Shown here: positions 1-18,000 of the stretch, in pieces
Numbering within the stretch: the stretch's first letter is position 1
Layout of the letters: every line of letters starts with the position of its first letter
Virus record (IMG/VR): IMGVR_UViG_3300025141_000792
Location: 1-23,208 of that record
Length of the DNA stretch: 23,208 nucleotides
Source of the DNA: a virus
Strand: one strand, 5' to 3'
Position numbers and translations under genes: made by a program
Notes under the pieces: model-generated
The model's input: the letters and a program-made list of their open reading frames with translations, nothing else
Database searches by the model: none
What the model was told of the DNA's origin: nothing

Positions 1-788
1 TTGGTAATGATAGGGTCCAGCATGGTAATTCTGGATATGGAGGCGCAGGCCATACGCAATGTGACTCAATAGACCTAGTAGCCGGCATGGGTGGGCCATA
101 TCCTAGAGAAGTCGATCAAGACAACCGATCCGTACCAACTAATCCAAACTTCTTTGTCGACGCTGCTAGAATTTATATTTCCCAGAAAACAAATGTCGAC
201 AAGAACTTTGGTATTGGTGAATTTGCTAGATACGACGCTACGAAACAGATGTCGCTAGTGCCGCCTGGAGGAGATGAGATCGGCGTGTATGGTGCAAAAT
301 CAGCGATCGCAGTCAAGGCAGACAACGTGAGATTAATTGGCCGCGAAAGTATACGAATTGTTACAGGGACCGATGACAAAAACTCTCAAAATGGCAAAGT
401 GCTAGCAAAGAGCGGAATTGAGTTAATTGCGAACAACGATGTTGAAACACTTCAGCCAATAGTTTTAGGTGATAATTTACAGTTGGCATTAATTACTATA
501 TTGAACAATGTCGAGGCTTTAGCTAAAATAATGCATGGATATATCAAATATCAGATGAAATACAATCAAGCCTTGCAGCGACATACTCACGTTTCACCTT
601 TTTACGGGATCACTACTTTAGAATCAGAACCGGCTATGATCGCGGGCATAAAGTGTGATATAGAGACCGGCGCGAATACAGAACTCTCTATCTTGAAGCA
701 CATAACAAATTTACAAGGAATTAAACATAATTTCTTGACGGATAGCGGCGAATCCTTTATTAATAGTAGAAACAACAAGGTTAACTAA
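1..788 (+). CDS. Phage structural protein, probably baseplate/spike associated (3' part only)
   Basis: The reading frame is open from base 3 to the TAA at 786-788, giving 261 visible residues. The first ATG in frame (87) is unlikely to be the true start, because the residues before it (GNSGYGGAGHTQCDSIDL) read like ordinary protein, so the gene begins upstream of the window. Visible features are a DAARIYISQKTNVDKNFG segment, a beta-rich AIAVKADNVRLIGRESIRIV stretch, a segment with LQPIVLGDNLQLAL followed by a predicted helix, an HTH (His-x-His) motif near the middle, and the C-terminal ending ESFINSRNNKVN. From memory this matches a family found just upstream of baseplate genes in marine myoviruses, sometimes labelled VrlC-like; I could not check this. 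His-x-His motifs bind metal in some trimeric phage spikes and fibres, so a spike or hub accessory role is possible. It sits 6 bases before the giant gene and is probably co-transcribed with it. Confidence 0.6.
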   Translation, partial: GNDRVQHGNSGYGGAGHTQCDSIDLVAGMGGPYPREVDQDNRSVPTNPNFFVDAARIYISQKTNVDKNFGIGEFARYDATKQMSLVPPGGDEIGVYGAKSAIAVKADNVRLIGRESIRIVTGTDDKNSQNGKVLAKSGIELIANNDVETLQPIVLGDNLQLALITILNNVEALAKIMHGYIKYQMKYNQALQRHTHVSPFYGITTLESEPAMIAGIKCDIETGANTELSILKHITNLQGIKHNFLTDSGESFINSRNNKVN

Positions 789-794
789 AAACAC

Positions 795-3700
795 ATGGCA
801 GAAATAGAAGACAAAAAGAAAGAAGTCGCTCCGCTTGAAAAAGTCCCGAAAGAGTTAGGTCCAACGACGATATTCTGCGACCCTAATCTAGAGTCGTCCT
901 TACAATTTGAAACTAATCAAGACCATTATATTGGTCGTTTAGAGGGCGAAGACGGAATATTTTCAAGCCCGTATCTTCCTGTTAGATTACAGCCGGCAGA
1001 AGAGGATCTAGAACGAGGCTGGGACGAACCGGACTTTGGAGTACTAGATAACGACGGCGATATTGTTACAGAAGCAGAGGATAAATCTCAGGTCGGCATT
1101 AAAGTTCCTTTAGGCCTAGAAATAACTGTAACGGAGATAGTGCAAAGCAAGACAGGCACATGGGTTGGCTTTATAGCTTTAGATCCACGCGCCGACGATT
1201 TAGATGATGTGTTTGCCGATAACACGCGCACATTGTATACAAAAGCAGAGTATGTCAGAATAAAAGAAGATTCTGTACCTGGTAACACCGATCCCTACTT
1301 GTCTGAGCGCGTTGCAAAGGGAGATTTCTTAGCAGAATCTACTAGCGGCGTCGCAGGCGCTGCAACAATCGCTCCTGGCGAAAATGAAAATTGGGTTAGG
1401 CTAGAGCCAGAAGACGTCAAGTTTCAGTATTTTAATTTCTATTTTTATAATCAGTCTCTTGCAGACCGCGGTCAAATCCCAAACGACGACGGCAGAATAA
1501 TTTACGACCTAGAGAGTATTGACAACTTTCAATCTCTTCGTTATTCTGAGGGGTACTTTTATTTTATTGTAGGTTCAGCGCCACGCAAAACCGAAGCTGA
1601 AATAATAAATTCTAGTAAGCAAGGATATGACTTGTTTGAGGATGAGCTAGAAGAAAAGAAAATCGCCGAAAAGATAGTCACACACGACGAAATTAAAAAT
1701 ACAGCGTGGGATAATCTTTTAGAATATCTCGGCAGGTCTGAAGCCAGCGCTAAGACAAGTTACATAGAAAATTTGAAAGATAAGTATTTCGTACAAGTCG
1801 CCAGAAAAACCAACACACAAACTCCAGATCCAAGTAACGAAAAGATATTGTTCGCGATTCGAGCGGAATACATAGACTCGCTGCCAAGAAATCCTAGGTT
1901 ATTTAAAAACAACTTTAAAGCCGGCTCGACTTTTTTGAGAGGCAACAATTACGCTGTCTCGTTTCCTGTATCAGAAATAAAGAAGCGTTGCGAGACAATC
2001 ACAAAAACGCTCAAAGATCTAAAGTCAAAGATAGATGCGTCCAAGCTGAGCATTGAGAATGCCAACGAGTCTGAATACGACATGCAAGCACAGATAAAGT
2101 TTATGGAAGAAGTGCCTGAAATATTTAAAGAATTTCTTGGTAGACAGTCTTTCCCCTTATCTAGCAATAAGAGTAGAATTTATGAACTAATCCGCGGAGG
2201 CGGTGGTACTTCCGGAGGCAGTGAAGTAACAAACGACAATCTATCCGCTCTTGATTTTAACGTCGGATCAGACTTGCCGGCAGAACACTTTATACAGCTC
2301 GGAATAAAAGACAATGGTGAGATTGCCGGCAACGCACGCGAAACCATATCTTACGTTTTGTTCTCGCCTGGACCAGGAAGCCTGGTCGGAGCAGACGCAT
2401 CCGATACTCAAGATCTCTTTTATTTTGATCCTTTTATAACACAGGATGACATAGACTTTTCGGATGTTCCACGCTCCGCATTGTCGTTAAACATAGCTTT
2501 ACCATGGCTAAGAGAAAAATTTGAAGGAGTGTACGGATCCCGTGCCCTTCATCTGTTGCTCTCTTATGAAAAGTCAAACAAGTTTTTCGGAGCGAGCGAT
2601 ACAGAAGAAAATTGGATGGAATATCTGTCCAAGTATATGGTGCCTCCGGTAAGAATTCATTTGTCTAAGCAACTTCGTGTTGATGATGAACCGCTAGAAT
2701 GTGATGAGTTAATCAAAAAACTAAATAAGGCCGGCCCAATTTTGACGCCTGAAGAAAGGCTGCTTCAAGAACAACTTTACAATAATCCGGATTGTATGGT
2801 TGCATATTACGACAAATTTTCCAAAGCAACTCCAGCAGTTAGTCCTGGCATGTCGAAGAGAGAATTAGAAAAGAAAGCTAAAAAAACTGAATCTGGAGGA
2901 AACGTACTAGACAACCAATATGTAAAGGTACTTTATACTGGCTTTTTCAATGCTCTAGATACAAACTCGATAACTGCTTTGATCATGGCATGCTTACAGA
3001 AAAAGCTAGGCGTTGCCCTTACGGCAGAAGCAATATGTGAAACAGCGATAATTAAGCTTGTCGAATCTACTGGCGCCGATTCAGTAGAAAAAGCAATGTT
3101 GGCAAACGCGCTATTGGCGCCAGATTCAGAATCCAGCCAGCTCTTTCTAAAGGTATACGGCGATGGTCCCCCATTTGCACCGAGTTTTAAAGGTCGAGTT
3201 CGTTTCAAGGGCCCTAAAAAAAACACTGTCAATGAGCCTGGCCAATTACTACCGGAATTAGATCAAAGTTATAATAACGCGGGTATTGCTACTTCTATGC
3301 TAATGTCTGATAGGGCGTCAGTTCTCACTCTAAATTTAGATCCAGTTGAAGAAGAGGACTCATTAAGGATAAAATCGGCCGCCATCGAGGCTGTCAAAAG
3401 TTTAGAAAAATCCGGACAAACGGTTAATTTGATTCCAGCCATTAAAGGATATGCTGACAACAAATACGTCGAAGAGAAAGCCTGGGAAGACGGCACAGAC
3501 GTCTTAAAAACCACCAAAAAGATTGCACTCGCTGCAGCTAGCTTTGGAAAACCTATTCCTGTTTATTACTCACAAGTAGAAATAGATAATGAGCGCGCTC
3601 GCTTAAAAACCCTAGGGTACACAAAAGCTGAGACCGACTCTGTTTTGGTGGCTTCAGGGTACTTGGTGCCTGATCCAAATCAGTATGAAGTTGTGCTGGG

Positions 3701-6700
3701 TGACGGAAAGGTTAGTTCGACACCACCGGGAGGCCAATCTGGAGCTACTGGCCTGCAGCCTTATAACTACTCAGCTGTTGAAGATGCCCGCGTTGTGGAA
3801 CAAAATGCTGAAAATTGGCTTAATTATATGAAACGCACCATCGGCCTAGCTTCAATCTGTGAATTGATTGTCGGTGATGTTTTAGATGGATTACAAAGCT
3901 TAATTAGAGACCCCGGAGCGTTCTTTAATGGCGGAGGTGCCGGCTGGTGGGATAGCCTCCTTGAGGGCCTAAAGAGACAATTCTCACCTCCTGTACCTAC
4001 TTTAAAATTTCCAGATTCTTTAGCAACAGATAACCACATGGGTGATTATGGCGAAAAGTTGCTTAAAACAATTCTTGCTATGGTTGCGCAAATGCTGGGA
4101 CAAATTGTTAACCTTCTATTGAAAAATGCGCTAGAGCAATGCTTAGAAGAGGACAGCGACCTAGGCCCTGCCGGAAGAAAACCTGCACCGGGCCCTGATG
4201 TACCGTTCCCAGCTATCGAAGCTTCCAACCTACCAACAATTCGTGGATTATCAAATGCAGATATGGTAGCGTGGATAAAAGATATATTAGATAACGTTTC
4301 GACTGGCCAGCTTTGCGCTCTTTTGAGGGGCGATGCAACCAGGCAAACACTTCGTGCATGCGTGTCCCGCACTAAGTCAAACTGGATTAAAATATACAAT
4401 GGCGGAATGGACACAATTCAGGATATAGAGTCGACGTTCCGAAAAATTGGCGAAAGTATTGATCTGGATATTTGCAATGTTGTGGAATCTCCAACATTAG
4501 TTAACAATTTGTGCGATGCTATTTTTGACCGAGACGCGCGCTGTTCTACTCTTTTAGAAGCCGGTCTGACTAAAGAAGAATGTGAACAGCAGATCAACCA
4601 AGAAATAGAAGATTTAAAGAGCAGAGTGTCTGGTTTAGCTAGTTTGAGTTTGTTAGACACCAGCCCTCTAGAGAATTCATTCCCACCTATTTGTGGCGAA
4701 AATGGTAATTTCACTGTTCCACCTGGTGTAAAAGACACCATGGATCGAATAACAGACAACATTCTTACAAATGTTAAGGGATCCCTAATGGTAGATTTGG
4801 AGGGCCTTAAGTTTTTCTCTGATCCTCCTCGTGCGTTGAAAGCGGTAACAGACCCAGAAGAACTGAAAAGAGCGCACTCGGCTTTCTTAAAATTAGCTCA
4901 AAAACCTAATAAGAAAAAGTGTCTTGCATTTATCGGAGACCCTCAAAACCATTATTCAGACAACAATATTGAACAGTCAACAGGATATATAATTTATCCT
5001 CTAACTTATAACTCCGTCACCCCAAACGGAGACAGCAGCGTCCTAAACAGTAGCTTAGAAGAACTAATCCCTCTTCACGTTGGTCTTTTAAACGAAGAAG
5101 ATGATTCCGACTTAATAGCAGGAAGCATAGCTGAAAAGCTAAACTCGTCAGTAAAAAATGATGTTAGTAGTTATATAAATTCTAAATTAGATGCGAAAAA
5201 ACCAGAAGAAATACCTTCTTTGCTTATCAACGATGAGTTAAACTCAGAATATGCAAAACAAATAAAAATTAAAAATTTAGATTCGTTAACTGTTGCACAA
5301 AACCAGCTCTTTAAAGCTCCTTTGTATGAAGCTAGCAGACAATCAAATACGTATGAAAATTTTCCAGGAAATCAAAATACTTATTATGGATCTGAGATGA
5401 ATAAATTTAACTTAACGCTCATGGCCACTGCCGACCCCATTCTCTTCTATTCTTACAAAAAACAAAGAAGAGTGCTTTCTAGAACTTGGACTTTAGACAC
5501 AAAATTAAAAGACATTGACAACAGACCCCAGACTTGGTATTATATGATGCAAGCTTATACTGGTGTGCACTTACCAATCCTTGACGACGATGACGGCGCC
5601 TGGCCAAGAAGAAACTTTCCAATGAGCGGTTGGATTGAGGATTATGATTTTTGGCTCGACGAATTTGATCCTGAAAACCCTGCAGAGATATATTCAGGCA
5701 CCGGCTTCGGCCCGGCGGCCATCGAGGCCGTCAATTCGGATGGGGCCGCCAGGAATTGGTGGCCACTTTATAAGAATTCTCCCGGACTAAGAAATCTAGT
5801 AAAAATTATAAAAAACCTGTATGAAGATTTTGGGAAAAAGCCGTTTAAATTTAAAGAACTAACACCGGGCAATAACCAAAAAATAGACGAATTCGAGTTT
5901 AACTTAGCTGTTGCTTTTATGGAGCTAACTGTTGCAGAAGCTACCGGACTTCAATATGATGTGGTACAAGATAAATTTCCAAATATTTCAAATTATTTTG
6001 ATGATAGTAGCGAAGTTATATTTGGCACTTACAAAAACCCAACACTAAACTTAATCGAACCTTTGGATAAGCATGCCCCTGAGACCAGGATCAAGGATGG
6101 AAAATTTTGGTTCAGGGCGATTCCGGCTCTGACCCGGTGGACCCAAATAGATGACACTGGTGAAACGCCGGGCTCCATCACCCTCCTCGACGCCGTGGCA
6201 ATCATAGCCAATTTTAAGTCGACCACTAGTGTTACTTTAGACGAAACCTTTAAACAAACCCAGAGATGGGGAGAATATGAATTCTATTACCCTCATTTTC
6301 TAGTATTTGATAAGCTTTTCAGAGACCCAAAAAGCTCTTTGAACGCTCCACCACAAGAAATAATTGAAGCATTCTCTAGCGTTGGTGCAAAAGTTAATCA
6401 AGACTTATACGATTCTTTAAACTTTATCCCTAAAAGTGTGATGCCAGCTTCTCTCCGAGGCGAAAAGGTTGCTACAGAAGACGGTTTTATTACATATACT
6501 GACCCATCTCCAGATGTGCAGGATGTTTTAGTAAGCGACGCCGAGGATATAAAAAAATCTGGCTTATATAATCCAAATATATTAAAATATGAGCTTCCTT
6601 CAAAAATTGTTAGTGCAGTTGCCACCGGAGGCCTAACAGAAGAAATGCAAGAAGCTATCGGCTCAATCAATCCTGAAGCACAGCTTTCTGCACTAGCAGA

Positions 6701-9700
6701 CCAACTAGAGACGACAAGCATAGAGAAGAGCCTTATATACCAGAACACAATTACACCATTAAGTGAAAATTCCAATATTCAAATAAACGAAGTTAAGAAT
6801 ATATCAAAGCTCGTTAAAGGTACAGTAACACCGTTTCCAGAATATCCATATATCGACCCGGATGTGCTAGGGGCAATCGAAGAAATGACTTTAGATGATT
6901 TCACATCTGGTCAATTGGTCAGCTTGATAAGCACACAACAAAATTATGCTGCAGGCAGCAAGCTTGATATATATTCTTCAGAAGAACTGGACGGCGATAT
7001 ATTTGAAACTGGCGTCGGCGCCGGCGTCGAGTCGCTAGCTGTATTCAACTTGAAAGAATTTTACAAAATATTTGATTACGGCCAGTGGCTGTTCGACCAG
7101 CCTGACGTCATCCACGCCGCAGAATGGCAAAGTTATCTCTTAGGTTCGGACAGTTGGATCAAGCTCAATTTGGGTTGGGGGACGGCTGACGGTATGCCTC
7201 CACCGACGCTAGCCGAAATTAATAATATAAAAACTGAAAAAGAGTTTCTCCAGCTTTTAAAAGCTTTTAATGATGATTATCTGCTTGATCAGGAGCTTAC
7301 TCCAATCTTACTTAATGACGACCAGGCTAATAATTTAGCGAATTCGTTGATCGAACAGCCAGAAAATGTTGGATCTGTTATTCTGGATAAAACTAATGCC
7401 AAATATTTACCAGGAGATCCCGCTATCCCGCCGGCCGTCATTGTCGCTGACAATAGAATTACAAATGAAACATACAACTTTAACTTTGCTGGCAAATTAG
7501 CTCCAGATGTACACGACTTAATAGAAAGTCTTTATCCTGGCGACAAATCTTTAAGCCTCAGCTTTCAAGGAGATTACAACGAACTTTATAAAGATTTCGA
7601 TCTCGAACCAGACAATTACAAAGCGCAAATATTTAGTCAACTATTGTCTAAAAAACTAGATGATAAGTTGCAACAATACTTGCCGACCAATGCCTCGTTT
7701 AATGATGAAAATCTAAAAGAAATTAAACAATTTTTGGCCATAGAAGGCTTTTCAGCACTCCAGTACGCTTACTCAACCCAGATGTTCGCCAAGATGAAAG
7801 CGTCCAGACTTCATAATCGCGGCTTTATGAAAAAGATTTGGAAAAAGATATTAAAAAGTCCTCTGGTTAGCGAGGGCATAGACCCTAGATGCGAAAACGT
7901 TTTAGAAAAGATCGGCGCTCCAACTGACACGCTTTCGCGGGACACAGAAACAGACTTCTTTAAAATTGAAGAAATAAAACCAAAAATTATAGAGCTTTAT
8001 GAAAAATCTCTCTGCAAAGACATCTATGAGGCAAATATAGACGGACAGAATTCTACTCGTGTCTCACTTCTAGAGGGCATGGTTAGGTTAGTTGTAAAAG
8101 TCTATACTCTAGAAATGTGCCTGGCTTCTGTGATAGCTTGGGACAGCTTTGATCTTGAAGATGTCTTTAAGGATACTTCAATGGCCGCGATTATCCTACA
8201 GAGCATATCTGAAGACTTTGATATAGAATTCTTGTCCTTTTTTGCAACAGACATGTTGAGAAAAGAAAACAATCTAACTGACATACAATTAGCAAGGTTA
8301 AGACTGGGCGTCGATGGCGCTCCTCAAAGTAGTATGGAGTATTTGATCGGCCTCGAAGCAGAAAGTATTTCTACAGTTGTTAAAAACATGTTTGTCAACA
8401 GTTTTCCTCTCAGCACAGATCTGCGTATAAGTTTACTTAAAAACTCAGACCCAGATTACGCTAATGACTTTTCAAAAGAAATTATTAATTCTAATGAGTA
8501 TAGCGTTGATTTCGTCGCTGAAGCTGGCGCTTTGACAGGTAGCACCGGCCCTCTAGAGGTAATATCTGATGCAAGAATGCACGATAATATTTATACAATG
8601 AACTTCGGCTCTGGCAGAAAGAACCCTTATGTAGGAATAGGCGGCCCCGCTGTCCCGAACTTTGATTTTGACAGAAGCCAAGCTGACGTGTTTGGATTAG
8701 AGGCAGAAAGAGGCGTAAGATCTCAAAATAATAAAAACTACTTGCACTCATTGCCTATGAATTGGTATCACGATCTTCCAAAGTATATTTATCCATCAAT
8801 TTCTTATTCCGACTGGAAAGACAAGGCCTGGAACTTGAATTCTTCCAATACTTTGTATACTGGTGAAAAAATTAATAATTTGTTATACATCCAAAGACAA
8901 TATCTTGCAAGAACAGACGCATTTTCTCTTGAAAACAGCCTAGAAACATCCCACGGCAACAATCTCAATAGAACTTTTGGAAATATAATTTTTGAACCTT
9001 ACGTAAAAATTCAAGACTGGGGCCCGGAAGAGGAAAGAGATTTCAAGGCTGAAGTTTATAGCAATCTAGATCTAAATGGAGAACCCTGTGACCAAGCTGT
9101 TTTGATAGAAACGTTTAATATAGAGGACTATTTGGAGATTATAGACGATAAAATCAATATTAAAAGAGACGAGCAGAACAATGCCTTCAAGAGCCATATA
9201 TATGGAAATGTCCCCTTGTCTGCTTGGAGCTACTTTTATAACAGCTATTTCTTAAAATCAGTTAATGAGTCACCGGCGCTCACCGCGCTGTTCAATAACT
9301 TTGGTCTTAAACCCTTCTTCAAAAAGGTTAGTTTTGGAATGCGCATGAGTTATATCACAGCAAATCCAGGATTAAACAAGTCACCCCTAATTGAAAGTTT
9401 AGATGTGCAATCAGCATCGACACCTTTAAAAAATGTCAAATCTATTCTCGGTCGTAGGCCTTATTACGTGGAAAACGAAGTCCCGGTTGTTTTATATGAG
9501 TTGCAAATTCCGATCGTTGAGGTAGAAAAAGAAATTAGTTCAATAAATGGTAGCCAATCATTTGTTATAGAAAATAGTGAGTTGATCCCTTTCAGCGAAT
9601 TGGGCATTGGCCCGGGCAACAAAGACGGAGAAGTACACTACACTATTCAGGATCCGGGCGCCATCATCAAGAACCCACATCAATTCTTTTATGATAAGTT

Positions 9701-10793
9701 GGCCAACGGAATGTTGCAGGAGATTAAAAATTCTGCTGAATTTAAATTAATGTACGATTATCTTTTTCCGATGAGAAGGTATATGGCCATGGCAACAATA
9801 ATGGCCTCTGACGGACTTTCCACCTTTATTAGTAATCCCACCGATGTTTTAGATAGAACCAAACAGTCTCTGTCTAGCATAATTGACAACATATCAAATT
9901 CCACAGATTTTAAACACTTGCCTGATCCTGTTGCGAACTTGCTGGCCGACCGCGCTCTACGAGCCGAGGCTGGTACCGGAGCAAAAGAGCCTGATATGAC
10001 AAAAGAGATCTTGAAAATTGTTCTTAGAACTCCGTTACTAGTTCTTAAGGGATTCGTCGAGATCACAGACCCAGCGATTATAACTGCCAAGAGAATTATA
10101 GATATTTCAAATGCTGTGGCAGTAAATACCCTTGCAGCGGTTAAACAAGGCATCGCTACTGCTAAAAGAATTGTTCAGTCTGGTATTGATGCTGCGAGAC
10201 AAATACTGCAGCAGCTAGAAATGCAGCTTAGCATCGGTATCGGTTTTGCAAAATCAGCCGTCGCGACGTTACCAACTATTAAAACTAGCGACGGGCCTGA
10301 AAAACTTTCCGATTACGTCATAATAGACAATTCCGGCGACATAGAAAACTGGGTATTGGAAATCAAGCCTCTCCCCGAGGATTTTACATCAGACGATCCT
10401 GAGATGGAAACAAAGTGGGCTGAGTTCACCGAGGAGTTTGATAAATTAATTGAACTGAGGCAGGAATATGTTGATAATAAGAGTAAATTAAGCGAATTGG
10501 AGAAGAAAAAAGCAGAAATCGTGAAAGAAGGCGAAGAAAAAGTAAAAGAAGCGGAACAACGCCTCAAGTCTGTCTATCAATCGCCGTATTTATTGCCGGG
10601 CGTTTGGTCGGCTATGATGCCATCAGTTATTCCTTATGGCGGCGGAATCAACCCGTATCCTATGCCTTTGCCTTTCGTGAGTACCTTCCCGGGCATGATT
10701 TATCTCGCTATACTATTTATAGATGCGATGGACGAGAAATTGCACGACGATATACAAAACACTAAAGATCCAAATTGCGAGGATCAACTTTAG
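795..10793 (+). CDS. Giant virion structural protein, 3332 residues, function unknown
   Basis: A single open frame of 10 kb encodes a protein of about 370 kDa. The ATG at 795 is the only reasonable start; its Shine-Dalgarno is weak (AAGG at 777-780). Visible parts: an SH3-like beta stretch (about 95-155, with GTWVGFIALD); a coiled-coil-like helix (391-441) before a Gly-rich linker (IRGGGGTSGG, about 466); a hydrophobic helix near 1089-1117; a Cys-containing helical region (1130-1380); amphipathic helices with repeated AKRI motifs (about 3090-3160); a charged coiled coil (3204-3261); and a Pro/Gly/aromatic tail with PYGGGINPYPMPLP and a hydrophobic GMIYLAILFIDAM stretch. No enzymatic motif was recognised and there is no signal peptide. 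It lies directly upstream of gp25, so a baseplate, hub or internal tail role is likely. It is not an obvious tape measure, because most of it is not heptad-like. Three short GC-rich islands interrupt its AT-rich sequence. The role remains inference. Confidence 0.72.
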   Translation: MAEIEDKKKEVAPLEKVPKELGPTTIFCDPNLESSLQFETNQDHYIGRLEGEDGIFSSPYLPVRLQPAEEDLERGWDEPDFGVLDNDGDIVTEAEDKSQVGIKVPLGLEITVTEIVQSKTGTWVGFIALDPRADDLDDVFADNTRTLYTKAEYVRIKEDSVPGNTDPYLSERVAKGDFLAESTSGVAGAATIAPGENENWVRLEPEDVKFQYFNFYFYNQSLADRGQIPNDDGRIIYDLESIDNFQSLRYSEGYFYFIVGSAPRKTEAEIINSSKQGYDLFEDELEEKKIAEKIVTHDEIKNTAWDNLLEYLGRSEASAKTSYIENLKDKYFVQVARKTNTQTPDPSNEKILFAIRAEYIDSLPRNPRLFKNNFKAGSTFLRGNNYAVSFPVSEIKKRCETITKTLKDLKSKIDASKLSIENANESEYDMQAQIKFMEEVPEIFKEFLGRQSFPLSSNKSRIYELIRGGGGTSGGSEVTNDNLSALDFNVGSDLPAEHFIQLGIKDNGEIAGNARETISYVLFSPGPGSLVGADASDTQDLFYFDPFITQDDIDFSDVPRSALSLNIALPWLREKFEGVYGSRALHLLLSYEKSNKFFGASDTEENWMEYLSKYMVPPVRIHLSKQLRVDDEPLECDELIKKLNKAGPILTPEERLLQEQLYNNPDCMVAYYDKFSKATPAVSPGMSKRELEKKAKKTESGGNVLDNQYVKVLYTGFFNALDTNSITALIMACLQKKLGVALTAEAICETAIIKLVESTGADSVEKAMLANALLAPDSESSQLFLKVYGDGPPFAPSFKGRVRFKGPKKNTVNEPGQLLPELDQSYNNAGIATSMLMSDRASVLTLNLDPVEEEDSLRIKSAAIEAVKSLEKSGQTVNLIPAIKGYADNKYVEEKAWEDGTDVLKTTKKIALAAASFGKPIPVYYSQVEIDNERARLKTLGYTKAETDSVLVASGYLVPDPNQYEVVLGDGKVSSTPPGGQSGATGLQPYNYSAVEDARVVEQNAENWLNYMKRTIGLASICELIVGDVLDGLQSLIRDPGAFFNGGGAGWWDSLLEGLKRQFSPPVPTLKFPDSLATDNHMGDYGEKLLKTILAMVAQMLGQIVNLLLKNALEQCLEEDSDLGPAGRKPAPGPDVPFPAIEASNLPTIRGLSNADMVAWIKDILDNVSTGQLCALLRGDATRQTLRACVSRTKSNWIKIYNGGMDTIQDIESTFRKIGESIDLDICNVVESPTLVNNLCDAIFDRDARCSTLLEAGLTKEECEQQINQEIEDLKSRVSGLASLSLLDTSPLENSFPPICGENGNFTVPPGVKDTMDRITDNILTNVKGSLMVDLEGLKFFSDPPRALKAVTDPEELKRAHSAFLKLAQKPNKKKCLAFIGDPQNHYSDNNIEQSTGYIIYPLTYNSVTPNGDSSVLNSSLEELIPLHVGLLNEEDDSDLIAGSIAEKLNSSVKNDVSSYINSKLDAKKPEEIPSLLINDELNSEYAKQIKIKNLDSLTVAQNQLFKAPLYEASRQSNTYENFPGNQNTYYGSEMNKFNLTLMATADPILFYSYKKQRRVLSRTWTLDTKLKDIDNRPQTWYYMMQAYTGVHLPILDDDDGAWPRRNFPMSGWIEDYDFWLDEFDPENPAEIYSGTGFGPAAIEAVNSDGAARNWWPLYKNSPGLRNLVKIIKNLYEDFGKKPFKFKELTPGNNQKIDEFEFNLAVAFMELTVAEATGLQYDVVQDKFPNISNYFDDSSEVIFGTYKNPTLNLIEPLDKHAPETRIKDGKFWFRAIPALTRWTQIDDTGETPGSITLLDAVAIIANFKSTTSVTLDETFKQTQRWGEYEFYYPHFLVFDKLFRDPKSSLNAPPQEIIEAFSSVGAKVNQDLYDSLNFIPKSVMPASLRGEKVATEDGFITYTDPSPDVQDVLVSDAEDIKKSGLYNPNILKYELPSKIVSAVATGGLTEEMQEAIGSINPEAQLSALADQLETTSIEKSLIYQNTITPLSENSNIQINEVKNISKLVKGTVTPFPEYPYIDPDVLGAIEEMTLDDFTSGQLVSLISTQQNYAAGSKLDIYSSEELDGDIFETGVGAGVESLAVFNLKEFYKIFDYGQWLFDQPDVIHAAEWQSYLLGSDSWIKLNLGWGTADGMPPPTLAEINNIKTEKEFLQLLKAFNDDYLLDQELTPILLNDDQANNLANSLIEQPENVGSVILDKTNAKYLPGDPAIPPAVIVADNRITNETYNFNFAGKLAPDVHDLIESLYPGDKSLSLSFQGDYNELYKDFDLEPDNYKAQIFSQLLSKKLDDKLQQYLPTNASFNDENLKEIKQFLAIEGFSALQYAYSTQMFAKMKASRLHNRGFMKKIWKKILKSPLVSEGIDPRCENVLEKIGAPTDTLSRDTETDFFKIEEIKPKIIELYEKSLCKDIYEANIDGQNSTRVSLLEGMVRLVVKVYTLEMCLASVIAWDSFDLEDVFKDTSMAAIILQSISEDFDIEFLSFFATDMLRKENNLTDIQLARLRLGVDGAPQSSMEYLIGLEAESISTVVKNMFVNSFPLSTDLRISLLKNSDPDYANDFSKEIINSNEYSVDFVAEAGALTGSTGPLEVISDARMHDNIYTMNFGSGRKNPYVGIGGPAVPNFDFDRSQADVFGLEAERGVRSQNNKNYLHSLPMNWYHDLPKYIYPSISYSDWKDKAWNLNSSNTLYTGEKINNLLYIQRQYLARTDAFSLENSLETSHGNNLNRTFGNIIFEPYVKIQDWGPEEERDFKAEVYSNLDLNGEPCDQAVLIETFNIEDYLEIIDDKINIKRDEQNNAFKSHIYGNVPLSAWSYFYNSYFLKSVNESPALTALFNNFGLKPFFKKVSFGMRMSYITANPGLNKSPLIESLDVQSASTPLKNVKSILGRRPYYVENEVPVVLYELQIPIVEVEKEISSINGSQSFVIENSELIPFSELGIGPGNKDGEVHYTIQDPGAIIKNPHQFFYDKLANGMLQEIKNSAEFKLMYDYLFPMRRYMAMATIMASDGLSTFISNPTDVLDRTKQSLSSIIDNISNSTDFKHLPDPVANLLADRALRAEAGTGAKEPDMTKEILKIVLRTPLLVLKGFVEITDPAIITAKRIIDISNAVAVNTLAAVKQGIATAKRIVQSGIDAARQILQQLEMQLSIGIGFAKSAVATLPTIKTSDGPEKLSDYVIIDNSGDIENWVLEIKPLPEDFTSDDPEMETKWAEFTEEFDKLIELRQEYVDNKSKLSELEKKKAEIVKEGEEKVKEAEQRLKSVYQSPYLLPGVWSAMMPSVIPYGGGINPYPMPLPFVSTFPGMIYLAILFIDAMDEKLHDDIQNTKDPNCEDQL

Positions 10794-10806: not shown

Positions 10807-11202
10807 ATGAACGGTATTGGGCCAAAATTACCACTACAAAGAGATGATATAGATGGGGCATATACGCTCATCGACGTTTACGCTGAAGAAATAAAACAAA
10901 ACTTTAAAAATCTCCTCTTAACATCGCCCGGTGAAAGAATGATGAACCCTGATTTCGGGGTTGGCTTAAGAAACTTTCTGTTTGAGCCTGAGCCGCGAGT
11001 GTCGGGCATGATAAGGCAGAGAATAGCAGGCCAGGTTACAAAATACATGCCTTTTGTAAAAATAAATAAACTACTTTTTAACCACGGCATTGACCCAAAC
11101 ACAGCAACTGACTCCAACGTATTGTCAATTCTTATAGAGTTTGAGGTGCCAAGTATAAATTTACAGTCCAGTTTAGAAGTGCAGGCCGAGGATATTAGCT
11201 AA
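10807..11202 (+). CDS. Baseplate wedge protein, gp25/GpW family
   Basis: The protein is 131 residues, almost the length of T4 gp25 (132). It carries the hallmark of the GpW/gp25 family at residues 36-61: LLLTSPGERMMNPDFGVGLR followed by NFLFEP. The family is often described as lysozyme-like in databases, but gp25 is a structural wedge subunit that links the baseplate to the first sheath ring and has no proven enzymatic role. The beta-alpha pattern after the motif (IRQRIAGQVTKYMPFVKINKL, then a final strand LSILIEFEVPS) is also typical. The start is fixed by the strong Shine-Dalgarno at 10792-10800. The next gene begins on the base after its stop, and gp25 and gp6 are adjacent or near neighbours in most contractile tail clusters. 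Identity is near certain. Confidence 0.95.
   Translation: MNGIGPKLPLQRDDIDGAYTLIDVYAEEIKQNFKNLLLTSPGERMMNPDFGVGLRNFLFEPEPRVSGMIRQRIAGQVTKYMPFVKINKLLFNHGIDPNTATDSNVLSILIEFEVPSINLQSSLEVQAEDIS
11188..11192 (+). promoter_or_regulatory. Shine-Dalgarno for the gp6-like gene, inside the gp25-like gene
   Basis: GAGGA lies 10 bases before the ATG at 11203 and within the last codons of the gp25-like gene. The two genes abut (TAA then ATG with no gap), so translation of the two wedge subunits is probably coupled. Confidence 0.6.
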
Positions 11203-12999
11203 ATGTCAAAGAAAAATAAAAAATTAATTAAATATACCGATCGCGAATTTAACGATATTAAGCAAAGTTTAGTCAATTATGCACGTAGGTATTATCCGGA
11301 TGTATATAAAGACTTCTCCGAGGCCTCTTTTGGATCTTTGATGTTAGATACGGTGGCATATGTTGGAGATATGCTTTCGTTTTATTTGGATTATCAAGCG
11401 AACGAATCATTTTTAGACACAGCAATTGAATACGATAACATTTTGAGACTTGGTGAACAAGTTGGGTATAAGCAACCTCTTCGTTCGAACTCTTTTGGTT
11501 TAATTTCGATATATGTTTTAGCTCCTTCTGTTGACGGCGGCTCCACTCCTGATACAAATTATTTGCCCGTCTTGGCAAAAGGCAGCAAATTTTCTACTAT
11601 AGATGGGCGCACCTTTTCTCTTATAGATGACGTCGATTTTGCAAATCCGGACAATGAAATTGTAGTCGCAACTCAGAACGCGGCAGACGGTAAGCCAACA
11701 TCATACGCTGTTAAGACAGTAGGGCGCGTAATTTCAGGAGAGGTAAAAACTGAAACTGTAAGTGTAAGTAATTTCAAAAGATTTCTAACCATACCGTTGT
11801 CAGACCCAGACATTACAGAGGTTGTGTCAATCGTCGATTCAGAGGGTCATGAATATTTTGAGGTTGAATATCTATCACAAGATACAATTTTTAGATCCGT
11901 GGTAAACAAGGATCCAGAAACCAGAAGGTATGTACCAGACGTAATGGTAACAACCTCTGCTCCAAGAAGATTTACAACTTTTAATCGTTTTGGAACAATA
12001 AATGTAAAATTTGGCTATGGATCAGAAAATAACCTTAAAACAGATAACACTATACACCCTTCTAATGTCGTTCTAAAAATGCACGGTCGCGACTATGAAA
12101 CAGACGCGTCGTTTGATCCTTCAAAGTTGGTGGAGACTAGTAAATTTGGAATAGCGCCTGCTAATACCACGCTAACAATCACATACAGAACTAATTCATC
12201 TGATAATGTGAACGTTGCAACAAGAGCTTTGTCAGAAGTTTCGAGACCAATTTTTATTTTTGGCTCGGATGCTACAAATAGCTCAAAAATAGCGACTCTG
12301 AGAGAAAGTATAGAGGTTGTTAACGAAGAACCAATCACAGGCGATGTGTCAGTCCCAACAGTCTCTGAATTAAAACAAAGAGTCAACGATGTTTTTTCGT
12401 CGCAGAATAGAGCGGTGACGGCTAGTGACTATGAGGCTTTGGTATACAGGATGCCCGGCCGCTTTGGTTCTATAAAAAGAGCGCGTATATATAGAGACCA
12501 AGACTCTTTTAAGAGAAATTTAAATCTATATGTTCTTTCAGAGGATGCGGACGGTAATTTTATGAAAAGTAGCCAATTGTTGAAAAACAACATTAAAACA
12601 TGGCTCAACAATCATAGAATGATAAACGACACGATAGATATTTTAGACGCTAGAATAATCAATATCAGGATTAATTTTGCTGCTGTAGTGGACTACAGTC
12701 AAGATAAAGTTGAGGCACTAAATGTAGCTTTAACAGAAATCGAAAATATGTTTTCGCAAAGGCTCGACATCGGCCAGCCGATCTACATATCGAAAATCTA
12801 CGATATTTTGAACAATCTAGACGAAATTGTTGATGTAACAAATGTACAAATAACAAATGAGTCTGGAGGAAGGTACTCTGATCAGATTTTAAATCTTAAG
12901 GAGTATATATCTGCAGACGGCAGGATTCTATATGCTCCAGAAAACACAGTGTATGAGCTAAAATATCCTAATCTAGATATTAAGGGAACTATTAGATAA
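11203..12999 (+). CDS. Baseplate wedge protein, gp6/GpJ (baseplate J-like) family
   Basis: The protein is 598 residues; T4 gp6 has 660. The N-terminal part (11-63) has the family signature: YTDREFNDIKQSLVNYARRY, then EASFGSLMLDTVAYVGDML and SFYLDYQANESF. The C-terminal half has the baseplate-J pattern: a segment NRAVTASDYEALVYRMPGRF near residue 402, a strand-rich RARIYRD...LNLYVLS stretch, and a late IENMFSQRLDIGQPIYISKI motif. In T4 and P2-like tails this protein dimerises and joins gp7/GpI to build the wedge ring that opens during sheath contraction. It follows gp25 directly and overlaps the next start by one base (TAATG), so it is in the same operon. No disruption is visible and the length is normal for the family, in contrast to its oversized neighbours. 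Confidence 0.95.
   Translation: MSKKNKKLIKYTDREFNDIKQSLVNYARRYYPDVYKDFSEASFGSLMLDTVAYVGDMLSFYLDYQANESFLDTAIEYDNILRLGEQVGYKQPLRSNSFGLISIYVLAPSVDGGSTPDTNYLPVLAKGSKFSTIDGRTFSLIDDVDFANPDNEIVVATQNAADGKPTSYAVKTVGRVISGEVKTETVSVSNFKRFLTIPLSDPDITEVVSIVDSEGHEYFEVEYLSQDTIFRSVVNKDPETRRYVPDVMVTTSAPRRFTTFNRFGTINVKFGYGSENNLKTDNTIHPSNVVLKMHGRDYETDASFDPSKLVETSKFGIAPANTTLTITYRTNSSDNVNVATRALSEVSRPIFIFGSDATNSSKIATLRESIEVVNEEPITGDVSVPTVSELKQRVNDVFSSQNRAVTASDYEALVYRMPGRFGSIKRARIYRDQDSFKRNLNLYVLSEDADGNFMKSSQLLKNNIKTWLNNHRMINDTIDILDARIINIRINFAAVVDYSQDKVEALNVALTEIENMFSQRLDIGQPIYISKIYDILNNLDEIVDVTNVQITNESGGRYSDQILNLKEYISADGRILYAPENTVYELKYPNLDIKGTIR
12982..12987 (+). promoter_or_regulatory. Shine-Dalgarno for the DNRLRE protein gene, inside the gp6-like gene
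   Basis: AAGGGA ends 11 bases before the ATG at 12999, which overlaps the TAA of the gp6-like gene by one base. The arrangement points to translational coupling. Confidence 0.55.
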
Positions 13000-15008
13000 T
13001 GGCGATTAAAAAATACAAAGCTACGAAAGACAACACTATTACTAACGCGTTCAAGCTAGACCTAAGCACTAGAGCAACTGGTTCTAATATGGGCTCTTCT
13101 GATATTTTAGAGGTATTTTCGATCTATGGGCAGCAGACTAGTACTTCGGCTGAATTGTCTAGGGTTTTACTACAGTTTCCCATAAGCACTATTTCTGCTG
13201 ATCGCACTGCGGGAAACGTTCCTGCTTCTGGTAGCGTAAATTTCTTTTTAAGAGTTTTTAACGCTAGACATTCTGAGCAACTACCCACCAATATTACATT
13301 TAATGTCCTAGCTGTATCACAATCTTGGCAGGAGGGTACCGGCTTAGACATGGAATCGTATCTTGATATAACTAAAGATAGCATAGCTGGCTCAAACTGG
13401 ATAAATGCTACTAGTGATACCGCAAAAGCCACACTAATTAACGCGATTGATATAAGCGGTCATGCTAACGGTGATAAGTTTACTATGAAGGTACCATCCA
13501 TCGCCGGTGGCGACGACGTTACCTACACTTTTTTGTTTGATACCACCACCAATGTTAATAACGACACTGGCGCCAATACTTTTGGCATTTCAAGACAAAT
13601 TGTTGCTGACGACGGCGCTCTGCGAGATGCTCTTGTCGACGCTATAAATGGCGTTGCTAATAGCGCTGTTAAATACGCCGACGCCGACACAGGCGCCGGT
13701 TCTACATTGACAGCTGGTACAATAGGTCTCACAGCAAAAGCGGGAACTGGTGCTTATACCGTTACTTTAACTATGGACACTAACGGATCCGCAGGAAACG
13801 TGGCCAATGTTTTGACCGCGGTAACAAATTTTGCGGAGGGAGATAAACTTATTGTCACCGCTTTTACCGGCGGGGATGGCCCATGGGCTAGTGCTGGTGG
13901 CCACTATCACTCCTCTTCTTACACCTCTGGCTCAACCATGCCAAACTATACAAAGACTTTTTCGAAAGGTTACGAAGATTTGGAGCTTGATATTACAGCG
14001 ATGGTAGAAGAGTGGGTTGCCGGCACTCAAGAAAATTATGGTTTGGGGCTATTTCTAACTTCTAGCCAGGAAGCGTATGTTTCAAATTCTGCTGGCACCG
14101 ACGACGGCGCTATTTTGCATAATGCTGCGGGCACAAGATCAAGCTTTTACACAAAAAGGTTTTTTTCTAGATCTAGTGAATTCTTTTTCAAGGTGCCTGT
14201 TATTGAAGCCAGATGGGATTCCACAACAAAAGACCAAAGAGGCGACTTCTTTTACAGCAGTTCTCTTGCGCCCGCTGCCGACAATTTGAATAAGATTTAT
14301 CTTTATAATTATGTAAGAGGAGAGCTAAAAAATATACCGAACATAGGAAGCGGCGAGATATTAGTTAGTATCTACTCTGGTTCATCAGACGATACAGAGC
14401 CAAGCGGATCTAAGCTAAATCTCTCTGTTGGCGGAGGTGTTGCTAGCGCTGGAGATTTAAACGTTACCGGCAACTACGTTTCAACAGGAATATACTCTGC
14501 ATCTTTTGCTTTTACTGGTTCCTCTACTTTAAAAACGATTTATGATGTTTGGCATAGTGATGGAACTGAGTATAATACGGGTTCCATTAAGCCACTAACT
14601 CTTTCATCCCCGAATTGGAATAGTTACCAGCAATATGTATCAAAGATCACAAATCTTAAACCTAAATACACAAAAAACGAACAAGCACGCTTTAGAGTAT
14701 TTGCTCGCCCACGGAATTACAATCCAGTTATATATTCACGTGTAATAAAAGAAATAGATAACACCACTATTCGCAAAGGATCGTACGAGATATTAAGAAT
14801 GGTTGACGAAAGAACTGTTATAAATAATTCTACAGGAAGCGCGACTAACCATACTTATTTATCTTATGACGTTTCTGGAAGTTACTTTGACTTAGACATG
14901 TCTCTGTTGGAGCCGGGCTATATGTATGGTATTAAATTACTTTATCATGTTGCTGGGCAATGGCGAGAGCAAGAAGAAGTGTTTAAATTTAGAGTTGAAG
15001 ATAATTAA
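12999..15008 (+). CDS. DNRLRE-domain virion protein with an inserted domain
   Basis: The protein is 669 residues. The N-terminus (ATKDNTITNAF, then RVLLQFPIS, FFLRVFNA) and the pattern SWQEGTGLDME...SNW...PWASAGGHY...YEDLELDITAMVEEWVAGTQ match the DNRLRE beta-sandwich family, found on many secreted and surface proteins and thought to bind carbohydrate or stabilise fibres. Between residues about 138 and 294 the domain is interrupted by a Thr/Ala/Gly/Asp-rich beta segment (NGDKFTMKVPS, LTMDTNGSAGN, FTGGDG) that looks like an independent fold. A second beta-rich part follows (about 430-669), with GIYSASFAFTG and the final YGIKLLYHVAGQW...FKFRVE. It sits between gp6 and a gp7/GpI-like gene, so it is probably attached to the baseplate wedge. 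There is no signal peptide or enzyme motif. The DNRLRE call is from pattern recognition, not a profile search. Confidence 0.75.
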   Translation: MAIKKYKATKDNTITNAFKLDLSTRATGSNMGSSDILEVFSIYGQQTSTSAELSRVLLQFPISTISADRTAGNVPASGSVNFFLRVFNARHSEQLPTNITFNVLAVSQSWQEGTGLDMESYLDITKDSIAGSNWINATSDTAKATLINAIDISGHANGDKFTMKVPSIAGGDDVTYTFLFDTTTNVNNDTGANTFGISRQIVADDGALRDALVDAINGVANSAVKYADADTGAGSTLTAGTIGLTAKAGTGAYTVTLTMDTNGSAGNVANVLTAVTNFAEGDKLIVTAFTGGDGPWASAGGHYHSSSYTSGSTMPNYTKTFSKGYEDLELDITAMVEEWVAGTQENYGLGLFLTSSQEAYVSNSAGTDDGAILHNAAGTRSSFYTKRFFSRSSEFFFKVPVIEARWDSTTKDQRGDFFYSSSLAPAADNLNKIYLYNYVRGELKNIPNIGSGEILVSIYSGSSDDTEPSGSKLNLSVGGGVASAGDLNVTGNYVSTGIYSASFAFTGSSTLKTIYDVWHSDGTEYNTGSIKPLTLSSPNWNSYQQYVSKITNLKPKYTKNEQARFRVFARPRNYNPVIYSRVIKEIDNTTIRKGSYEILRMVDERTVINNSTGSATNHTYLSYDVSGSYFDLDMSLLEPGYMYGIKLLYHVAGQWREQEEVFKFRVEDN

Positions 15009-15034: not shown

Positions 15035-18000
15035 ATGAGCATTAAAGATCTATTTGACAAAGGACATTCTCTAAAGTTTGTTAAAAACAAAACTAAAGAT
15101 GATATAGCTGAGTCGGTAGAGTCTTCTCGCTATATTGATGTATATAACAAAAGAAGAGACAGGTTCAGCCCGTCTGTAGATTTTTCCACTGCTTCTAATT
15201 TTGCGCGCTTCGGTTTAGCTGAAGAGTATTACGATACAGCCATAAAAAGAATTTATGAAACTTATCCATATGACGGCTCGCAAACAGAAAAAATTCAATG
15301 GGAAAACGATAGCACTTATTTAGATCTTTTTGTATTTGAAAACGAATACCCTAGAACAAATGGGCATGTTATAATGGGGCAAGAGTCTTCGTTCTATGGC
15401 TCAATAGACTCGACCTACAAAGTATATGCATCCACAGCACCACAGTACATATTTCTTAAGGGCGGCCCGCATGCGGACCCGGACGGAGATTATAAAAGTG
15501 ATTTTGGCCCAGGCGCATCCAAAAAAGGCGTTTCTAAAGCAAATATATATGATACAACGTATCAGCGGACAAACAACCTAGAACTTGATTTAGACAAGGG
15601 CGTCACTGTTGAATTCTGGATGAAGAAAGAAGGTTTCGCATCGACTTCGGCAGAACATCACGAGTACGTTTTCCATTCTTGGAATTCTGGATCCTCGGCT
15701 AGTTCTGGTTCTTTACGCGCCTATGTCTACGGATTGGGCGCCGCGGCTCAAACCCGCATGCACGTTAGCGCTGTTTCTGGATCTACAGAATTAGTATTTA
15801 ACCATGGTACTGGCTTGTCGACTATAGGTGACAGCAAGTGGCACCATTATGCGTTCACTTTAAAAACTCAAGGTGCCGATACGGTATCTCACTTATATGT
15901 TGACGGAGCACACAAATCAACCCTGTCTAGAGCTTCATCTACAATAAACGCCGTGACAGGAACAATGACGGCTGTAATCGGCGGCCTTGCCGGCCCGCTG
16001 TCCGGATCTTCCAATATCGGAAAGGGCTGGGGTAATATCGTCTCTGCATCTTTCGACGAGTTTCGGTATTGGAAAACAGAAAGAAACGCGCAAGATATAG
16101 GCAGATTTTACATTGATCAAGTTGGCGGAGGCACTAACACTGATAATGACAAACATGACGATTTAGAGAAAAAAGTTTCTCTTGGCGTTTATTACAAGTT
16201 CAATGAAGGCATAACAGGAAGAACCTCCACTGACTCTACAGTATTAGATTACTCTGGACGAATCAGCAACGGTACTTTTGTTAATTATGCGTCAACGTGT
16301 CGAAACACCGGCTCGGCTATTGTTTTATCAGAAGCCGCAACAAAAGAATTCTTAGACCCAATCATATACTCTCATCACCCGAGTGTTGCAAGCTTATCAA
16401 CAGCTAAAAAATCTAGTGGATCGATGCATGATCATGAAAACGCGTCGTCTCTCTACAGGTCGATGCCATCGTGGATTGCAGAGCAAGACGAAAAAGATTC
16501 TAAAAATTTAAAATTCTTGACTCAAACAATGGCCAGCTTTTTTGATGACTTGTATTTGCAAATTGAAAAGGTGCCCAGATTAAAAGATATAAATTATCCT
16601 GATGACAATGATTACGAAAAGCCCCTAGCCTTCGCAGAAAGACTCTTAAGCTCTAGAGGCTATGATGCTCCGGAATTATTTGCAAACGTGACCGATCTGG
16701 CAAAATATCTTGAGAGGGACGAAAAGAAACTATTTGAAAAGAAACTGTATGAAACAAAAAACATCATTTATCAAAATATCTATAACAACCTCTCTTATAT
16801 ACAAAAGTCAAAAGGCACTTACAAGTCTTTAAGAAATTTTTTGAGGTGTTTTGGCGTCGATGAGGAGTTAATTAAATTAAACGTTTATTCGAACAATGAC
16901 GTTTATGAGCTAAAAGACAACACCACCAACACCAGTATCAAAAAAACTTATTTAGATTTTGATGATGCAGAAACAAGGAACGCAGCATCTTCTAGTTATG
17001 CCGACTCGTATACTGCCACTGCATACCAGTATTATGACACTAGCGACTCTAATTCTATTTCTTATATACCTGGCGCTACAGAAACATTAATAACTGGCGC
17101 AATGATGACAATTGAGACAGAGGTAATTTTTCCAAAAAGATCAATTAGCGACGACAACAACTTTCAATTATTTTCTCACACCACTTCCTCAATTTTCGGA
17201 CTACACGCAGTCGCTGCTAGCAACACAGATCTTACATATGCTGCCTCTGACACTGTTAATTTTAATGTGCATGTGTCAAAACCAGATGATGACGCAAGAA
17301 ATGTAAAATTTCTTGTATCTGGTTCTAGCATGTTCTCACCCTTAGAGACTTCGCAGACGTATGCGGGTGTTTATGATAACGAAAAATGGAACTTAGCTTT
17401 CAGGTTAAGACCAACGAAAGCGACCACCAACAACACGCCTGCTTTAAACAGCAGTGTCGGTTTTCTATCACCGGCCGCCAGCGCTTATACGTATGAATTA
17501 TATGGCGTCAATTATATATCTAATGTTTTGCAAAACGAATTTACGTTATCTGGAACAATGAGCCTTGCAAACGCGGTTACTTTTTTCAAAACTCCAAAAA
17601 GAATATTTTTAGGAGCAGAAAGAACAAACTATACCGGTTCCGTTGTAAAATACTCAGACGTCAAAGTATCGTCAACCAGGGTGTGGTTAGATTATTTGTC
17701 AAACGAAACAATTCGTGCGCATGCTAGAGATGCAAGCACATATGGCGCCCTTCAGCCCTACAGAAACACGAACGACTCATTAAATAAGAGATTTGTGCCT
17801 CAAATTTCTTCTCTAATAATGAACTGGGCAATGGACAATGTGACCGGTTCGTCGGCCGCCGGCCAATTTTTAATTGAAGACTTTGCATCCGGCTCAATCG
17901 AAGACAAAATGAGATTTGGAGACCATTGGGCCGCACCAATATCAAAATACAACTATTCAGGCCGCGGAGATAAATTTGTTGTCAGTCCAAATTATACTGA

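Follow-up and report, generated by a model that had tools for sequence, protein, structure and literature searches.

Phages of a marine Far-T4-like myovirus lineage encode, between a central-spike-like gene and the gp25 and gp6 wedge genes, a giant protein that probably belongs to the baseplate. The copy described here has 3332 residues and lies in a stretch of 23,208 bases (the window), which is the whole of IMG/VR record IMGVR_UViG_3300025141_000792 and is classed as linear. We infer its presence in the virion, its location in the baseplate and its scaffold role, and give the reading of a structural baseplate protein, most likely of the inner baseplate, where it would serve as a large scaffold or clamp, a probability of about 0.6.

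The window is a fragment of a contractile-tailed phage whose group, by capsid and terminase, belongs with the Far-T4 phages. Because capsid and terminase genes are absent from the window, this placement runs through relatives with an approximately 48% identical gp6. For the 186 kb relative G017, the best matches of the MCP were LR756508, Microcystis phage Mel-JY01, Flavobacterium phage immuto and Rhodothermus phage RM378, and those of the terminase (TerL) were immuto and Mel-JY01. Its gp23-type capsid and T4-type terminase are nearer to RM378/immuto than to Tevenvirinae or cyanophages, and this neighbourhood of LR756508, Mel-JY01, immuto and RM378 is Far-T4 as in PMC4360716 and PMC7198788. G017 also encodes portal, sheath, tube and hub proteins of T4 type. 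For gp113, gp112, gp111 and gp109 of immuto (NC_055915), a cultured Far-T4 relative, there are counterparts among the genes of the window, which are the following:

3..788, + strand: 3' part of a central-spike-like gene, truncated at the contig end, with beta-helix-type repeats and an HTHV tip-like motif
795..10793, + strand: giant gene, 3332 residues, about 370 kDa (estimated mass), acidic
10807..11202, + strand: gp25 baseplate wedge protein (PF04965, E 5.6e-11; immuto gp113, E 2e-15)
11203..12999, + strand: gp6 / J-like baseplate wedge protein (phrog_219, E 1.1e-19; immuto gp112, E 2e-77)
12999..15008, + strand: wedge-associated protein, counterpart of immuto gp111 (E 6e-7)
15035..20824, + strand: 1929-residue protein with a central part that corresponds to immuto gp109 (E 8e-9), in the place of T4 gp7 by position
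20862..23207, + strand: open-ended ORF of the structural module

A sequence-only reading of this DNA had set the long frame beside baseplate wedge genes, and the gp25 and gp6 matches bear this out; the Baseplate_J match of the window gp6 is weak. The fragment at 3..788 had no Pfam or PHROG match and is called central-spike-like from its sequence pattern and position; spike-like homologues of 330-512 residues stand before the giant in relatives. The LamG-like stretch in the 15035..20824 protein was read by eye alone. The 669-residue protein at 12999-15008 carries an extra segment of about 150 residues (about 145-295) that is absent in its nearest relative, L061 (516 residues), which suggests a recent domain gain. 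The gp7-like protein measures 1,700-2,460 residues in the near clade (loci with a gp6 at least 60% identical to that of the window) and at least about 2,830 residues in the majority of far-clade loci; in the far clade the giant is often smaller, and the sizes of the two proteins may trade off.

The giant ORF begins with ATG and runs through 3332 codons with zero internal stops, filling 43% of the window, in agreement with the earlier description of one intact frame taking up more than 40% of it. Aligned with the homologue in L061 over 3172 codons, it gave a pN of 0.11-0.39 and a pS of 0.68-0.87, close to saturation, in every 300-codon block, which shows purifying selection along its whole length. 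Near-clade contigs were collinear: each block from residue 901 on was covered in at least 14 of 15, and N-terminal blocks in 8 to 14 of 15, a count affected by loci being cut 10 kb upstream. The sole split copy (L053/L071, 1081 + 659 residues) is no sign of an artefact, because a deletion of about 40 bases relative to the near-identical intact L052 explains the split. That the frame is an assembly join of separate genes, which the sequence-only reading had named as its refutation, or a chance ORF is ruled out by the selection in all blocks and by collinearity through every block in independent contigs from different metagenomes. The giant is a single real gene, made as one polypeptide.

The gene recurs throughout the group. 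With gp6 as bait in viral contigs we retrieved 56 and later 80 loci; at least 572 IMG/VR stretches encode a relative of the window gp6, and the giant was checked in a subset of them. The ORF directly before gp25 was very large in essentially all related loci that reach far enough. We gathered 127 such large ORFs (84 non-redundant), and about 130 related loci carry a giant homologue just before gp25 and gp6, with complete homologues of 1,767-3,926 residues. At E<1e-3, an HMM built from near-clade giants only recognised 51 of the 67 upstream ORFs from the far clade; many of those it missed are either short pieces or members that have diverged most. Searching viral contigs with the whole giant gave no confirmed match; the clade alignment succeeded as query. 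When the C-terminus of the giant served as bait, gp25 and gp6 followed just downstream (short flank) in 77 of 79 loci, the co-occurrence in viral metagenomes that the sequence-only reading had suggested checking; the other two are short (4.3-4.5 kb). We weighed whether the 972-residue homologue in L161 might be a minimal ancestral form and dropped the idea, because that contig begins only 82 bases upstream. Among the conserved genes of the structural module in these phages the giant is the largest, and it makes a good marker gene for uncultured marine viruses. Genes of the group also occur in bacterial MAG contigs (L159, L160, L161 and L162; Actinomycetes, Neisseriaceae, Flavobacteriales and Hydrogenimonas), which may be host hints or binning contamination.

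Gene order in relatives is strict: sigma factor, PG hydrolase, spike, giant, gp25, gp6, gp111-like and gp7-like. The late sigma factor gene upstream of the PG hydrolase heads the cassette (L069:16006-16686, - strand; L067:525-1238, + strand) and is a phrog_234 member and counterpart of immuto gp118 (E about 1e-26). The gene just upstream of the spike encodes a tail-lysozyme-type protein of 988-1564 residues whose enzymes vary: Peptidase_M15_4 (E 3.5e-17) with N-acetylmuramidase (E 5e-11) in L068:519-5210 (+ strand), a GDSL hydrolase (E 3.8e-5) in L069:12743-15706 (- strand) and a weakly M15-like domain in L063:13915-17655 (- strand).

An alignment of 48 giant members has about 1,334 columns filled in at least 70% of sequences. 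In window residues, its conserved stretches are 301-470, 511-760, 1020-1370, 2311-2560 and 2791-3110, to which the near clade adds 3250-3332. Along the window gene these and other segments are placed as follows:

1695..3134, + strand: residues 301-780, conserved N-terminal core with beta strands, a helical hairpin and a helical segment with a conserved 'NALD..C'
3825..4904, + strand: residues 1011-1370, conserved helical core with a QLCxLLRGxA motif
6825..7394, + strand: residues 2011-2200, inserted segment confined to the window and the relatives nearest to it
7452..8474, + strand: residues 2220-2560, conserved helical domain
9165..10124, + strand: residues 2791-3110, most conserved beta and helical domain, present even in the most distant members
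10071..10577, + strand: residues 3093-3261, long antiparallel helical hairpin with helices of 60-65 residues
10578..10793, + strand: residues 3262-3332, Pro/Gly/aromatic loop and hydrophobic helix, highly conserved in the clade of the window

Coverage of the hairpin is poor in distant members, L072 among them. Members carry up to about 350 extra residues at an insertion point near residues 1401-1500 and N-terminal extensions of up to about 385 residues. Self-BLAST found no internal repeats, in line with the view that the protein is not a repetitive fibre, and both the helical hairpin (about residues 3093-3261) and the conserved Pro/Gly/aromatic C-terminus (3262-3332), the latter noted in the sequence-only reading, are real. 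Structure models covered residues 300-1400 and the C-terminal 1133 residues, with 1-299 and 1401-2199 outside them. The C-terminal model is confident (mean pLDDT 77, pTM 0.69) and runs from a helical domain through a mixed beta domain, a second helical domain and the long helical hairpin to a terminal hydrophobic helix. The model of residues 300-1400 is weaker (pLDDT 69, pTM 0.39); helices make up most of it, and a beta element lies near 330-530. The giant is built as a conserved core of about 1,300 shared positions, made of mainly helical and mixed alpha/beta domains, with lineage-specific inserted domains that account for the size spread from 1,767 to 3,926 residues.

Database searches brought up no relative of known function. 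Pfam and PHROG scans of the window giant and 33 members (15 and 18) gave nothing convincing, with one weak match to an 'internal virion protein' PHROG in a single member (E 0.0015). In sequence-profile searches of the PDB the best E was 0.0095, of coiled-coil type and taken as chance. Foldseek gave no PDB match below E 0.5 for either model, and a prefoldin-like match reflects only the helical hairpin. Among 50,697 GenBank phages there was no detectable relative; the tblastn queries (the giant C-terminus, residues 990-1370, the core of a distant member and L161) were all without a match. Three BFVD entries, A0A1B1IUR6, A0A516MAR9 and A0A516M7H3, match the C-terminal third by predicted structure (E 1e-6 to 1.5e-4) and are probably members of the family. 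They are uncharacterised viral proteins with no name or function on record, so that giant-like sequences do exist in UniProt/BFVD without an assigned function. No published description of the giant was found in the literature searched, and in the Far-T4 paper PMC4360716 the main text says nothing of a baseplate. The giant as an addition to the inner baseplate cassette of a T4-like contractile tail is undescribed in the searched sources; the tail machine itself is known.

Genes of this interval in contractile phages encode hub and inner-wedge parts. The giant would sit at the junction of the central spike and hub with the gp25/gp6 wedges, and as a large scaffold or clamp it could hold hub and wedges together, with its inserted domains as decoration. 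Such a scaffold or clamp fits the strict synteny of spike, giant, gp25 and gp6 as well as the conserved core and its numerous insertions. The baseplate reading also draws on the gp25 and gp6 genes downstream of the giant in 77 of 79 loci, the far-clade matches of the near-clade HMM, the purifying selection along the gene, the confident C-terminal model and the two small genes, with no others, that fill this slot in immuto. Against it, no baseplate protein was matched in sequence or, with the two models, in fold, and the N-terminal model is weak. Ejected proteins and assembly factors can also have their genes among tail genes, and the position in the cassette is therefore no proof of location.

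The main rival, which we consider unlikely, is an internal ejected (pilot) protein in the tail lumen or head, of the size of the N4 virion RNA polymerase, itself a giant ejected protein. The giant is in the size class of known ejected giants, is acidic and helix-rich without fibre repeats, and ends in a hydrophobic helix conserved in the near clade. However, the 33 members showed no polymerase, enzyme or ejection-family match apart from the weak one at E 0.0015, and the gene is locked between spike and gp25 rather than lying beside portal or head genes. Less likely still is a role in baseplate assembly as a factor or scaffold that is not part of the virion: T4 does employ non-structural helpers such as gp51, but helpers are small, a 10 kb gene for one would be costly, and the group already has a T4_baseplate-type helper.

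We give little credence to the proposal, made in the sequence-only reading, that the giant arose by fusion and stands in for several small hub or tube-baseplate proteins (gp5, gp27, gp29, gp48, gp53 and gp54). What speaks for it comes from immuto, whose cassette is collinear with that of the giant-bearing phages: late sigma gp118, gp117, (PG hydrolase), spike, (slot), gp25, gp6, gp111 and gp109. The slot between spike and gp25 holds gp115 (371 residues) and gp114 (139 residues) and no other genes in immuto, and the 3332-residue giant in the window. Both gp115 and the giant C-terminus have a Pro/Gly motif (P-rich/GG) followed by a helix, a superficial likeness in the right relative position that we treat as a lead to possible kinship. 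No homology was detectable between the giant and gp115 or gp114, with an hhalign probability of 0.3% for gp115 against the giant C-terminus. There was no convincing counterpart of gp115 in G017 or G010, and for gp114 a single weak match, in G010 (E 0.009). Either the giant took the place of gp115/gp114 or it grew out of them. The GenBank label of gp115 (L001:18021-19136), 'DNA repair ATPase RecN', is probably a misannotation, as a protein encoded between spike and gp25 that looks like a structural coiled coil.

The small parts themselves argue against a fusion. Complete genomes of the group have gp25, gp6 and the gp7-like protein as separate genes too, with a gene for about 300 residues in the gp48/54 position. 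A second tail module is found in four giant-bearing genomes (G017, G027, G029 and G030) and in G017 spans the contig ends; its order is sheath, tube, T4_baseplate hub protein, tape measure, a protein of about 300 residues, a gp53-like wedge protein (phrog_7145, E ~3e-9) and a protein of 820-980 residues. The gp53-like protein, hub chaperone, tube, tape measure and the roughly 300-residue protein after it thus all stay separate. Eight giant segments compared by hhalign with T4 gp5, 6, 7, 8, 9, 10, 11, 25, 26, 27, 28, 29, 48, 51 and 53 (gp54 was left out) reached probabilities of at most 1.8%, the same as decoys (e.g. gp23, 1.6%). The fold search of the PDB with the two models gave no match either. 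The fusion is not supported; the unlikeness to T4 baseplate proteins stated alongside it is, for those tested. As the second module holds them separately, the checked small hub and wedge parts are not missing, and the giant is not the tape measure, as had been said from sequence: its large size, helical segments and place in a tail cassette would suit one, but a separate coiled-coil tape measure of 709-996 residues, between the tube and hub genes and the gp53-like gene in all four genomes, refutes this.

Contractile-tail baseplates are thought to be built from a conserved set of small proteins. To that set this lineage would add, at the meeting point of spike and wedge, one protein as long as 3,926 residues; it keeps all the standard parts that could be checked. 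We judge it an even bet that the family is an undescribed class of giant baseplate organiser (1,800-3,900 residues) with a fold absent from the PDB, obligatory for an abundant lineage of uncultured marine myoviruses and added between spike and wedge with the usual small proteins kept. As a family without description it is a concrete target for study in uncultured marine viruses. The N4-type virion RNA polymerase shares with it the size class and phage structural origin, but the giant has no polymerase signature and another gene neighbourhood. In T4 this place lacks a protein of such size, and none of the giant segments is like any of the T4 baseplate proteins tested. With the T4 inner baseplate (gp5, gp27, gp25, gp53 and gp6) the group of the giant nevertheless shares gp25, gp6, a gp53-like protein and T4_baseplate-type hub proteins.
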